From Nannobrachium achirus (lineage: Eukaryota; Chordata; Actinopteri; Myctophiformes; Myctophidae): a stretch of 64,000 nt of DNA. The DNA is taken from contig OY997639.1 of assembly GCA_963921795.1 (NCBI GenBank), positions 63,838,144 to 63,902,143 of the forward strand. The letters run 5' to 3'. The first letter of the stretch is position 1, and every line of letters starts with the position of its first letter. The position numbers were made by a program, and so were the translations under genes. The notes beneath the pieces were generated by a model. That model was not told where the DNA came from. It made no database searches and was given only the letters and a program-made list of their open reading frames with translations. Positions 40,712 to 46,700 of the stretch are shown in pieces.

Positions 40712-43700
40712 CTAGCAGTAGGACCTGGTTTGGCTCCAGGGCGCTCCAGGCAGGCTGCCCTGTCGGACCAGCCCTCTCTGCCCCCTCATGGCCCGGGGAT
40801 CGGGGATCATCTCCCTCCTGGGGGGGTAGAGGGGTTGTTGTTGCGGAGGAGGTGGAGGGTAGTGACTCGTGTGCTGGAGTTGGCTCTGGGGGGGCTGCGG
40901 CGGCGCGTAGTTCCCTCTGGGACCCCCGAAGGGAGCAGCAGAGAGCTGGTGGTGGTGGGAGGAGGGGTATGAGGAGCGGTGTTGGTGGGGGGGGTGGTAG
41001 GGGGCGTCCTGGTACCCGGGCCGGGTCGTGTAGGGATTGTGGTCGGCGGCGGCGGCGGCGCGTGCGGCCGCCTCCTCCTCGGAGCGGTGGAACCTCAGGA
41101 CCTGGTCGCCCGAGGGCAGGACGTCAAACACCTGCCGGTAGCGCTGGCCGGTCGCCGAGGCGGAGCGCCACCACGCCTCCCCGCGCTGGGAGGAGGAGGA
41201 GGCGGCGGGGTGCTGGTGGTAAGGCGGGGGAGGAGGAGCAGAGGGGGGCGCGTAGGGGTTGGGCGGGTGCATGTGCGGCGGGGAGGGCGGGGAGGCGGGG
41301 TCTGGACGACCCTTGCTGCTCCTCTCCTCTCGCTCCTCCTGCGTCATCTTCTCCATCAGCAGAGCGGCGATGTCCTGGCCGGACATGGCGGTGGTGGGGG
41401 GAGGGGTGGCGTCGCGACCACCACCCCCGGACCCTGCTAGGGGGGGGCTTCCCCCCGACCTCCACTCTCTCCCTCCTCCTCCGTCCTCCCTTCTCTCTCC
41501 TCTGTCTTGCTCGTCCGTCCCTCCCTCCGTGTTTTCGGGGTTCGCCGGGCCTTGGCGGCCGGCGTCTCGATCGTCCGGCTCCGGAGACGACGTGGTGGGC
41601 TCGGGGGGCGCGGCGGGGGAGGGGCTGAGAGACGCCGGGGAGGGAGAGGAGGAGGAGGAGGAGGAGTCTCTCTGCTCCTGGTCGGGAGGGGTGAGGAGCA
41701 GCGGGGAGAGGAGGAGAGGGGAGGACGAGGGGTCGGGAGGGGGCTGAGCAGGAGGGTCCAGGTCGCTGGTGGCCCAACCTCGACTCACAGGAGCAGCCGA
41801 GGAGGCGGAGGAGGAGACGTACGGAGGAGGAGGCGGTTGAGAGGAGGAGGAGGTGAAGGGGTAGTTGACGTAGACAGGTTCCGGGCGCTCGGCTCCACCG
41901 GGCTGCAAGGCCCCCTGCTGCTGCTGCTGCGTGGGAGGTGCGTTGTCCAGCTGCGAGCGGTAATACACCCGGCCGTTCTGGAAGTACGGGTGCAGGGGGG
42001 CGGGGTGGGCCTGGGGAGGTGCGGAGGAGGAGGAGGAGGAGACGAGCGGGGAGAAGGAGGCGTGGGCGAGGGGGTGCATCTCGCTGCGAGCCGGCGGCAG
42101 CCGCACCGACGACGACGACGTCGGCTGCCGCTGGAGGCAGGGCCTGTTATTGCTGTTGTCGTGGCAACGCAGGGAGTGGGAGGCGGCCCAGGCTCTGGTG
42201 GCATCCGACGACCACAGCTGGCCCCCCCGCCTCCCGCCGTCCGGGTAGCCGTGGTAACCGGGCGTGCCGCCGCGGGACTGGGGTCTGCTGCTGCCGGGGC
42301 CGGGGCGGTCACTCAGGAAGTCCTCTGACCTCATGTTGAGGTAGGCGTGCCGGGCGTAGCTGGGCGGGCCGGAGGGGGAAGGGTGGGGGTGCGGGTGGAG
42401 CGGCAGGGGCCCGTCACCCTTGGGAGCTCCGATCTCATAGTAGAAGTTCTCCACCTTCCCCTGGTCGTCTGCGGAACAGGAGGCCATCGGGTGGAGGTTG
42501 CCGTGAGCAGAGCCTGGATGGGAGGCCGGAGGCTACGGGGAGAGACAAACATGGTCACTGAGATGAGAAGACAAGGGCTGGACCATCTCTTTACATGGAC
42601 AGAAATGACTTATACATCGACTACAAAGGCAACTGTGTGACGCACTACCTGTTAAACACTTTGGACACCTGCTGGTCTAGGATCTGATCCCACCAGAGCT
42701 CTCTCTCCCTTGTCTCCCTCTCAGCTTTCTACTGCCTGTCTCTCCGACACTGTGCCTGTCTCTTCTACGCCGTCTCCCTATCAGCTATCCTACGGTTTGT
42801 CTCTCATAAATAAAGCTTGATTTGATTTAATAGACTATCTTCATCCCCGCTTTCTTAATGTCTGTCTCTCCTACACCGTCTCTCTCTCTCAGCTTTCCTA
42901 CTGCCTCTCTCTACTACACAGTCTCCCACTCAGGTTTCCTACATTCTGTATCCCAACTGTCAACTTTCCTACTGTCCGTCTCTCCTGTCACTGTTCCACC
43001 ATGTCCCCCCTGTGCTCCCTGCTGTGACGTACCAGTGCGCAGGCGGGTGGTGGAGGGCAGGCAGAGACAGGCTGGCTGGCGGCCCTGGCAGCATGGTACC
43101 TGGCCAGCCTGTCCGGAGCGCCACTCAGGCGCTCAGAGAAGGCCCTGGCCAGCGGGGGCTGCCCGCCGCCTGGCTCCCCCACCAGGCGACGCACCCTGTC
43201 AGCGTCCAGGGACCGCCGCAGCTCCGACCTGGCCAGAGGGTGATGGTCCCGGGGGTCCCGGGGGTCCCAGGCGGGCCCAGAGGCCACCTGGAGAGCCAGG
43301 TCTCTGTTCCTCTGGGATGGGGGGTCCCTGTCTCGCTGGGTGGGGGCCACCAGGTCCAGGGGCTTGGGGGGCACCTTGGGCCTCCCGGGCTGATGAGCGA
43401 TGGCCTGGGACAGCGGGGAGCTCTCAGACCTAGGAATGGGACCATATGGAAATTTCAAGTCACGATTATTGTGACCAAAGAAATTGCGATTTACAATATT
43501 ATCGCGATTTATCAAAATATCCCCAACCTATCCCCAACATTATCCTGGGCGGAACTTCTGCCAAACAATAGCTGTTGCCACGCGTTGTGACTGTTAGCTT
43601 GTAGATCGGCTATTGTTTGGCCAAGAGATTTGGTAGAGAGTGAAACAAAAATGAAAAGACAGTATCAAGTATGTTATTTCCACTTTCCCAGGTCTGTTTG

Positions 43701-46700
43701 ACCCTCTGTTTGAGGGTTTAAATGGTACTGGATAATATGCAGCTCGGCAAATAAAAGGTGAATTGATCCCAGTGCATGACGGAGGACAATTTATTTCAGG
43801 ATAATACTCAGACCTGGAGTGGTGCATCTGGGGCTGGGAGGGCTGCAGGGGATACACCGCCACCGACTGGGACTGGGAGTGCTGGGAGTGGAGCTGCAGC
43901 TGAGCCTGCTGGGCCGCGGCCACCGAGATGTTCTGGGTGGAGACGGAGGCGGACACCGTGGCCACGGCGGTGGGAGAAGCAGCGGTCGTGGTGGTCTTCT
44001 GGTGCAGATGAGGGGCGGAGAGCTGGCGGCCGTACGCCGGAGGCTTCCGCCTGGACGCCGGCTGCTGCGAGTTGGAGGAGGGACTCCGCCTGCTGGAGCT
44101 CTGGCTCTGATTGGTGTAGACCGGGCTGGGGGTGTGTTCGTCTCCCGAGGAGCTGCCTCCCGATAGGTCGGTGGCTACGGAGTCAGAGACGGACGTCTCA
44201 GACGACAGGGTGCCCGTGTCCTGGGAAACACACACATACACACACGTTTAGACATTTTATTTATGTTCAAATAAGGGATACAATACAAGGACACACATAT
44301 TACAAGGTGCTGTAAATAATGTACAGTCAGCAAATCTTGGACAAATATTCAATGCCCACACGGCTACCAATAATAGAAGAAATTGCACAGAATTTTGCAA
44401 TCTGTTTAGCTGCTTTTTTTGGCTTCCCAAGTTGTTGGAGGCATCTTACAACCAACCTATGTACTGTACATGTCCTAGGCTGCCAACGATGAACACAAGT
44501 AGACTGCAGCTATAGCCTAGCTCTGTGATGGTTTGGAGGAGCGGCAGGTATTTGATGACTTTGGTCATAAAGGCTTCCTCCAAACTAGAATCAAAGGTAC
44601 AGGCCACTTCAAGAATGAAGACAGATTTGTCACACACACACACACACACACACACACACACACACACACACACACACACACACACACACACACACACACA
44701 CACACACACACACACACACACACACACACACACACACACACACACACACACACACACACACACACACAGTGGGAATAAATGAAGTACATTTCGATTTATC
44801 GTCATTTGTAACAGTGCCATGTAAAAAAAAAATCAAACCTCGGTTCGAAGTGGAGCGGTGAATCTGAGCAGCTATACCCTGTGTGTGTGTGTGTGTGCGT
44901 GTGTGTGTGTGTGTGTGTGTGTGTGTGTGTGTGTGTGTGTGTGTGTGTGTGTGTGTGTGTGTGTGGTGAGTGTGCCTGGCCTGCAGAAAACAGCGCCCCT
45001 CTTTAACTAGTGTGTTGTGTGTGGCCACTCAAGGTATTGCCAGGCTACGGACGGACGGACACGGCCAGCCAGCCAGCCAGCCAGCCACATACCCACGGAC
45101 ATACCTGTCTATTGGGAGCGCTTTCACCGCTCCAAAAAAATCAATAAGGAAACAAATACAAACATCTACAGTGACTTAATGTTCTGTTTTAAAGGGAAGT
45201 GCTATTTATTCTAACTTTAAGGATAAGGTGATGCTTCTAACGCTCAATTCATACTCCATCGTAAGACGGTGTCACTTGCCGGAAATAGCCAAGATATAAA
45301 AGCTCACTTTGCCAAAAATAAAACGTTGTGAGCTTGTAGTTTGGCTATTTTCGACGAGTGACATCGTTGTATGACCAAGAATAAATCGGGTTTTAATGGG
45401 TTAGTAGTCAGCCTGAACAGGGGTTTAAATCCCACAACCACTGACCCATACAGAGAGACTAGAACAGAATCTGACCTACATACATACACTCAACGCACCA
45501 CTTAGGCCGCACGCACACACACACACACTCACGCACACAGTCACTCACTCACTTAAAGAGTGACTTTGTCTGCTTTACCAAAACTTTTGAAAACTTTGCG
45601 TACATTTGAAGTAGGTTTTTCCAGAGCTTATGAGAGGGAGCTCTTATGGGACAAGCATTCAGAAGTGTTTCTCCTCCCAATAGAACCAGAGGATTCAGGT
45701 CAAAAACCTGTGAAGTTGGCCCTTAAAGTTGACCTTGGCCTCTAGTTTGAGGGCAGTAAAGTCTTTGCTCTCAATTGAGAACTACCCAGCACACGTGTCC
45801 AATGAAGGCTCTGACAAAATATCCTGTGAGATTCTGCAGCACTGTGAGTTTAAACCGTGCGCGACGTGGCTGTGTAAGCAATATTCACCAACCAGTGTTG
45901 GTGGTGGGTTGTTCTTTTTCATTAGAACCACTTAAGACTAAAGGGGAGCACACACTGGACGCGAACGGCTGCGCAGCGTCGCGTCCACATGAAGTGCCGC
46001 ACGGTAACCCCAACTGGATGCGGCGCGCTGCCACACAGCACATCCATTTCCCCGGTGGGGAGAACCATGGGAGAACATGTTCAACGCGCGGCAACGCTGG
46101 AAAAATAGAACAGTGGCGAATCGGCGCGGCAGGCGAGACTGCGCGCGTCTGACGCCGCCGGTGTGGGTTAGTTCATTGAAAATAATGGGGCCGTATGTTT
46201 TGACGCGTCGCTTACGCGCCGCCTCCGCGTCCAGTGTGTGTTCCCCTTTAGTGGGCTGTATTTTCGTCCATGCCTTACCCATTATCCTTAAACGTTTTTG
46301 ACATTTCTTTTACCATTTTGAAAAAACGTTTTTAATAATTCAAATAGCTGATCTACAAGCTCACACTGTGTCAATGGCACTTTACCACTCTCACACCCGA
46401 GCACTGAACATAAAGGTTCCTGATGGTCTCATTATTGTTAATGCAAAGTTACTTTCTGAGAAATCACTGAATCAAGCCTCCATTCCCTCATCAAAGAAAG
46501 AAAAAAAGAAAAAAACCTACACTTGATAATATCTAAACACAACTTCACACCAAGTAAATGAGCACATTAAACATGTCATTTCATAGCTATAACTAACACA
46601 TAGTCAGGGAATTTTTATAAAACCCTGGGAATAAATTCCTTACCAAACAATTTCTTCACCAATGTGTTGGTAAAGGTGTCTAGTAAGATATCTAACAAAG

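Follow-up and report, generated by a model that had tools for sequence, protein, structure and literature searches.

The question raised by this locus is how a predicted intron came to lie within a coding exon of the gene arhgap33 in Nannobrachium achirus, and whether a transposon could both have interrupted that exon and have furnished the splice sites for its own removal from the message. Vertebrates seldom gain introns, and where the new ones come from is for the most part obscure; a transposon family whose copies can be aligned with an intron offers a source that is both direct and testable. The window analysed here, a stretch of 64,000 nucleotides (nt) at C2:63838144-63902143 of a 1.66-Gb genome and containing 0 N, carries arhgap33 on its minus strand. 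A preliminary description of the window had proposed an Introner-like gain of this intron through insertion of a miniature inverted-repeat transposable element (MITE), and that proposal is the best reading of the results: the intron was very probably made when a hAT-like MITE inserted into a coding exon and drew its predicted splice sites from the resulting target-site duplication (TSD), a reading that gains weight because the same family displays the same anatomy elsewhere in the genome, best in hmox2.

The octamer CTCAGACC was found, exactly as had been described, at both ends of an insert of 376 nt (with one further occurrence in the window, at 40567), and the insert together with one copy of the octamer measures 384 nt. 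The left terminus of the insert proved to be the terminal inverted repeat (TIR) of a MITE family with other copies both in the window and genome-wide, and read on the coding strand this TIR ends ...CCCATTCCTA, which would become a 3' splice site once joined to the initial G of the target copy. The anatomy put forward in the preliminary description, with a 5' site from the first TSD copy and a 3' site from the transposon end plus one target base, is therefore correct, and the predicted junction, CCACTCCAG|GTCTGAG ... CCTAG|GTCTGAG, would upon removal of the element and one target copy restore HHSR-SESSP with the frame intact, as had also been claimed. The predicted intron contains 8, 3 and 7 stops in its three frames, and its GC content is 0.40, whereas the exons on either side have 0.68 and 0.73. 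Outside the element and the target copy no intronic sequence is left, and no older intron is therefore needed to account for it.

The coding character of the flanks was assessed with the codon usage of the last exon of arhgap33 as reference. The upstream exon scored 0.355 in the frame of the gene versus -0.66 and -0.40 in the other two, rising to 0.61 over its last 149 nt, and the downstream exon scored 0.17 versus -0.25 and -0.25, with 0.35 over its first 150 nt; the insert scored -0.84 or less in each frame, and none of its three frames is free of stops. A coding signal in a single frame accordingly extends to the TSD on both sides of the insert, with none inside. The open condition of the two exon halves is by itself weak evidence, since 8% and 13% of base shuffles are also open. 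Left unspliced, the frame would continue for about 72 codons of the insert and then meet a stop, ahead of another predicted intron and the last exon; an early stop in such a position would trigger decay of the message. Splice sites were scored with donor and acceptor matrices, and with a U1 5' end sequence. The acceptor CCATTCCTAG reached a position weight matrix (PWM) score of 5.88, the 93.6th percentile of 7,676 AGs in the window, and the predicted donor at the far end of the downstream exon scored 7.65, the highest in 44260-42960.

The preliminary description had also suggested that a comparison with genome-wide copies might locate the right terminus of the element, and that comparison yielded a family consensus and supports the MITE reading. 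A genome search with the insert returned 39 further long matches and one short fragment (the best 40 of 4,922 candidates); of the long matches, 34 have their start within bases 7-14 of the 392-base query, and for 37 the end falls within bases 365-382. The consensus, TAGGGATGGGACGATATG...ATTATCGTCCCATCCCTA, is 434 nt long and was built from 17 copies with both ends, out of 20 fetched (three having an end that was not callable); these diverge from it by 4.6-11.4%, and its TIRs read TAGGGATGGGACGATA.. and ..ATTATCGTCCCATCCCTA. Among 52 copies with the left border GGTNNNNN and a perfect TIR, 25 have a TSD partner agreeing at 7/8 or 8/8 positions (16 of them at 8/8), a partner being an octamer next to a right TIR that has no more than one mismatch, and the right border being the best-scoring candidate within 900 nt. 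Of the consensus copies, 5/17 show an 8/8 duplication and 4 more a 7/8 duplication (two of these may be one duplicated locus), and the chance of agreement for one given pair of 8-mers is about 1.5e-5. The family thus usually makes 8-bp TSDs. With both 8-bp TSDs and TIRs present it appears to be a hAT-like, non-autonomous MITE, the superfamily being one that we take to be indicated by the length of the duplication. Left borders with GGT number 52 genome-wide when matched exactly and 919 with at most one mismatch in a pattern search, and by extrapolation the family would therefore have copies in the thousands. One full-length copy of the left-border set (L074, at C20:50073012) adjoins the same target octamer, GGTCTGAG, in surroundings that look non-coding and gave no coding match.

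The arhgap33 copy is related along its full length to other family copies in the window (blastn), and, of its 341 sites that align with the consensus, 35 (10.3%) differ. It retains one TIR only; the loss of a recognisable TIR at the right had been noted before, and in the best alignment its sequence breaks off at ...GGATAATA, some 21 nt before the end of the family, in addition to carrying an internal deletion. Given a divergence of about 10% and the loss of both internal and terminal pieces, the element is probably not new. Its truncated right end begins with TA, as does the lost TIR, and a deletion by TA microhomology that began at the third base of the element's end, two bases in, could account for the fact that a perfect TSD lies beside a truncated end. 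Nested within the MITE at 43560-43621 is a palindromic motif, AAATAGC-AGATCTACAAGCTC / GAGCTTGTAGATCTGCTATTT, which also occurs alone at about 20 other places in the window (for example 8949-9030, 48042-48108 and 59413-59514) and is probably a separate snap-back element.

The sequence of events that best fits this anatomy would begin with a non-autonomous hAT-like transposon landing in an arhgap33 coding exon, where the coding strand read GGTCTGAG, and duplicating these 8 bases; we infer that ancestral arhgap33 had no intron there. The family TIR, read outward, ends in a pyrimidine-rich ...TCCCATCCCTA, and where the target begins GGT, its first G would complete an acceptor AG, and in the upstream copy the GT that follows this G would serve as the donor. 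The element and one target copy would then leave the RNA as an intron that we likewise infer to be actually spliced, with the message unchanged. A short deletion, possibly by way of the 2-bp TA microhomology, would later have removed the right terminus and stopped at the donor.

The insertion, its family, its TSD, the frame and the geometry of the splice sites can be read directly at arhgap33, and the same geometry was found elsewhere in the genome. A scan with the acceptor end CCATATNGTCCCATNCCTAGGT, allowing one mismatch and covering one TIR end only, found 76 places including arhgap33, of which 60 keep GGT. Besides arhgap33, 57 of the GGT places were examined, 20 of them with about 800 nt of sequence and 37 as right flanks of 161 nt; 54 could be parsed (L109, L121 and L127 being dropped). 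Among the 19 parsed longer loci, 7 have a TSD of at least 6/8, and among five short loci for which the left border was fetched, L131 and L119 have a TSD of 7/8 or 8/8, L152 shows 5/8, and at L123 and L141 no left end was found. In all, four mid-exon cases (arhgap33, L110, L102 and L119) and two apparent acceptor replacements were found among 58 GGT places, and at L110, L102 and L119 open frames join seamlessly across the MITE between matching TSDs.

The most compelling of these, and the only one of the three additional mid-exon cases with a confirmed homologue, is L110, in hmox2 at C4:20425744-20426286. All 91 of 91 residues of the joined peptide aligned without gaps to heme oxygenase 2 (4wmh, E 2.7e-42; Pfam, 3.1e-37). 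Matches to the human protein fall into five pieces across C4:20424528-20428081 (E 0.81 for the last of them), giving a gene with an exon structure, and a TAA in the third piece lies within the MITE. Together with two intronless copies, this gene offers an internal comparison: hmox2-like copies on C10 and C19 were matched in single blocks, their DNA running through the corresponding site without an insert (the C19 copy has an 18-nt insertion elsewhere). These copies, with distances at 4-fold sites of 0.30 and 0.35, are probably intronless retrogenes that stayed open; the blocks, at C10:57296519-57297385 and C19:6645959-6646849, contain open frames of 323 and 386 amino acids (aa). Other heme oxygenase copies are also interrupted within the same exon, at positions unlike that of the C4 MITE (C3:64709839-64711166, C4:22677146-22678134, C3:46790268-46790912 and C3:46793296-46793949); one interruption is of about 800 nt, and three fall near one position with gaps of about 140-480 nt. 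The exon concerned is a single one in human.

At L104 and L131 the MITE lies on what seems to be an acceptor that was there before it, and apparently replaced this with one of its own: the right flank of each reads into an exon, and the left flank is non-coding, ending CCCAG|GTGTGGC at L104 and CAAG at L131. A broader comparison of flanks by Pfam covered 18 of 20 sense frames at 18 loci (second frames of L097 and L134 being left out) and all 19 antisense frames. Four sense frames beginning at the TSD gave matches, to heme oxygenase, mitofusin, tubulin cofactor D (2.1e-5) and, below cut-off, a kinase (0.002); only the first of these is a mid-exon case. A fifth sense match, to PI4-kinase, is set back from the TSD, past the end of an ordinary intron. 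In the antisense direction none of the 19 open frames from these flanks had a match at E 0.01, in a comparison that was not strictly matched, the sense frames being longer or trimmed and searched at E 1 and the antisense frames being 48 aa long and searched at E 0.01. Donors of the mid-exon cases scored higher than the median of 3.63 for 52 background copies (one-sided rank test, 0.020), and against the 26 background copies with a TSD of at least 6/8 the same test gave 0.047; with n=4, this difference is only suggestive.

Several further loci were considered and set aside as intron-making cases. At L099, beside an SLK-like exon (named by eye), and at L134, near a PI4-kinase-like exon, the MITE lies within an ordinary intron; L111 has a tubulin-cofactor-D-like right flank, with a truncated element and a non-coding left side; at L123, tentatively gdpgp1-like, the left end was not reached; L152 was rejected for its incomplete repeat; and L107, L141, L060 and L081 showed no homology.

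A number of observations weigh against the favoured account, or limit its extension to a family of introns. The arhgap33 donor, CAG|GTCTGA, has a modest PWM score of 4.00 (90.5th percentile among the window's 8,121 GTs), low because of a C at +3, and it is the lowest of the four mid-exon donors, the others scoring 6.54, 7.30 and 6.45. The hmox2-like copies on C10 and C19 look like retrocopies, and would therefore be either older than the insertion or copied from spliced RNA. Open frames in the 54 flanks (18 sense versus 16 antisense) do not separate the strands, and among the 26 left-border loci with a TSD of at least 6/8 no clear coding insertion was found, using an open-frame test that was crude in its first form and Pfam on two loci. 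The L102 peptide gave only Pfam matches below cut-off and has no confirmed homologue, and the L119 peptide had no PDB or Pfam match and, when searched against the genome, recovered nothing beyond the two halves of itself; because of these missing homologues and the uninformative open frames, the C8 and C17 cases are weaker than hmox2. The further proposal, that this is a true vertebrate Introner family which created introns in many genes where the target began GGT and also replaced acceptors, is accordingly advanced with moderate confidence and no more, two of four mid-exon cases being without a homologue. Its members so far would be arhgap33 and hmox2, probably with two more, and if the proposal is true, a search from the other end and among diverged copies would raise their number to tens.

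The alternative that deserves most attention, unlikely as it is, holds that the MITE is a disruptive insertion, spliced poorly or not at all, which truncates ARHGAP33. The allele would then be damaged or null, and might be polymorphic or confined to the animal that was sequenced. The stop about 72 codons into the unspliced insert and the weak matrix score of the donor both fit it, but an element that is some 10% diverged and has lost pieces nevertheless lies between two exon halves that are still open and still carry a coding signal, and the deletion at its right end left the donor untouched. The donor is moreover stronger by another measure: its duplex with U1, of five pairs, a 2-nt bulge and five pairs at -8.5 kcal/mol, is attained by only 1.24% of GTs in the window, and bulged U1 registers are described in a review (PMC9311317). 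The donor would thus seem usable, perhaps leaky, and the recurrence of the same geometry, clearest in hmox2, also argues against simple disruption. That other splice sites are used, for instance by exonisation through the 72 open codons or through a donor TGA|GTATTA at the border of TSD and element, which would add six bases, is distinctly improbable; the frame does remain open that far and the GTATTA is present, but TGA|GTATTA scores -2.54 versus 4.00 for CAG|GTCTGA, and its U1 duplex reaches -4.5 versus -8.5 kcal/mol.

Some family copies do reside in ordinary introns, as at L099 and L134, and an older intron into which the MITE later inserted would be a parallel case. Here, however, nothing but the 8-bp duplicated target remains beside the element, the A of the acceptor is the last base of the transposon, and the donor consists of target bases whose second copy is coding as well, such that this explanation would require a precise deletion of all old intron sequence and has very little probability. 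A chance repeat or an assembly error, in whose favour nothing was found, is the least credible of all, given an exact repeat at family-typical borders, 8-bp TSDs across the family, 0 N and a single clean locus. Splicing of DNA transposons of the SOS type requires paired TIRs, and was rejected as a mechanism for the arhgap33 copy, which lacks them; among the literature matches listed for it, none uses the term. Scans of viral contigs with the 18-mer of the TIR and with the exon peptide found no match.

The name arhgap33 stands on a match to the human protein by the exon at the edge of the window and on a PX-like exon. The former exon matched human ARHGAP33 with 73% identity over 45 aa (E 3.6e-16, in a 103-kb subject), and ENFYYEIGAPKG in the last exon resembles the human protein over 13 aa (E 0.42). 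The PX-like exon shares the strand of the gene and lies about 10 kb outside the window; its Pfam match to PX (E 0.00097) falls just short of the cut-off. A search for the RhoGAP family gave no match at arhgap33 among the matches listed from the best 150 of 289 candidates, and the GAP exons probably fall in an N-filled stretch past the window (7,500 N in C2:63902144-63941700); a Pfam search of the split exon and the last exon likewise gave no match. The joined exon is 804 nt long, is interrupted in phase 2 and reads ...QMHHSRSESSPLSQ...; it matches only its own locus in the assembly, a third match (E 5.8) being unrelated. Two long CA/TG dinucleotide arrays, at 44631-44768 and 44880-44974, lie in the intron of arhgap33 that immediately precedes the split exon.

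Table. Features of the arhgap33 locus, MITE copies in the window, and recurrent cases elsewhere in the genome
Feature	Location	Strand	Remarks
MITE copy, left end truncated	24947..25260 (ends approximate)	-	window match
MITE copy with both ends	36710..37045	+	window match
arhgap33 last exon	40715..42468	-	ends ...SQTRSYC*; start predicted; acceptor 42469 top-scoring in 42720-42420
arhgap33 exon downstream of new intron	43033..43429	-	3' end at predicted donor CTG|GTACGT (43032)
Second target-site copy	43423..43430	-	GGTCTGAG on coding strand; first G would complete AG, remainder exonic
Predicted intron	43430..43813	-	384 nt, GT...AG, phase 2; from sequence
hAT-like MITE copy, right end truncated	43431..43806	+	family matches and consensus alignment
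Retained TIR of this copy	43431..43448	+	TAGGAATGGGACCATATG; family consensus TAGGGATGGGACGATATG
First target-site copy	43807..43814	-	GGTCTGAG on coding strand; would supply 5' splice site G|GTCTGAG
arhgap33 exon upstream of new intron	43814..44220	-	407 nt; predicted acceptor TTTCCCAG|GAC to CCACTCCAG; acceptor top-scoring in 44260-42960
MITE copy with both TIRs	55265..55751	-	target copies AGTTCAAT/CGTTCAGT (6/8)
Exon with end of RhoGAP region, identifies arhgap33	63802..63936	-	similarity to human ARHGAP33
L110, hmox2, mid-exon MITE	C4		TSD GGTACGTG, 8/8
L102, coiled-coil-like frame, mid-exon	C17		TSD GGTATGAT/GGTGTGAT (7/8)
L119, open frame, mid-exon	C8		TSD GGTGACAC, 8/8
L104, mitofusin exon, apparent acceptor replacement			TSD 8/8; PF04799, 6e-32
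L131, receptor-kinase-like exon, apparent acceptor replacement			TSD 7/8; Pfam 0.002, under cut-off

Among known systems, the nearest counterpart is found in the Introners of Symbiodinium microadriaticum, which, according to Gozashti et al. 2022 (PMC9860276), carry a 3' splice site and take the 5' site from the TSD. Both are non-autonomous DNA transposons with TIRs and TSDs, found at more than one place in one genome, and here too the 5' site would come from the target and the 3' site from the end of the element, with the length of the message unchanged; the family would in this way behave like an Introner. They differ in that the host here is a vertebrate, that the TSD is 8 bp rather than 4 bp, and that the AG of the acceptor is shared, its A being contributed by the element and its G by the target. 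That survey places Introners in only two animal groups, with no pattern of gain in vertebrates, and gives families of 5 to over 2,000 copies; among the literature matches listed, none reported an Introner family in a vertebrate in its title or the opening of its abstract. Most of the MITE copies examined here lie outside exons, and the family therefore seems to be a MITE family of the usual kind in which an insertion now and then makes an intron. In its 8-bp TSD, its TIRs, the lack of visible coding capacity and its high copy number it resembles MITEs of the hAT type, although its TIR starts TAGGGATGGG and not with the CAGGG often quoted for hAT elements.

The statement in the preliminary description that such a gain is rarely seen this cleanly in vertebrates was a fair one, but a teleost precedent has been published: intron 3 of slc26a2 in notothenioids, made by a putative transposon termed NTE-1 (PMC12357937). 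Both cases involve a teleost and a transposon-derived intron, with gt-ag lying in direct and inverted repeats and with later changes to the intron. NTE-1 is another type of transposon, as its 4-nt direct repeats and tgt...aca ends indicate, and in that report it is described for one gene and supported by a comparison between species, whereas the MITE described here appears in more than one gene. The combination of a GGT target and the end of the TIR provides a rule that predicts which insertions into exons can survive.

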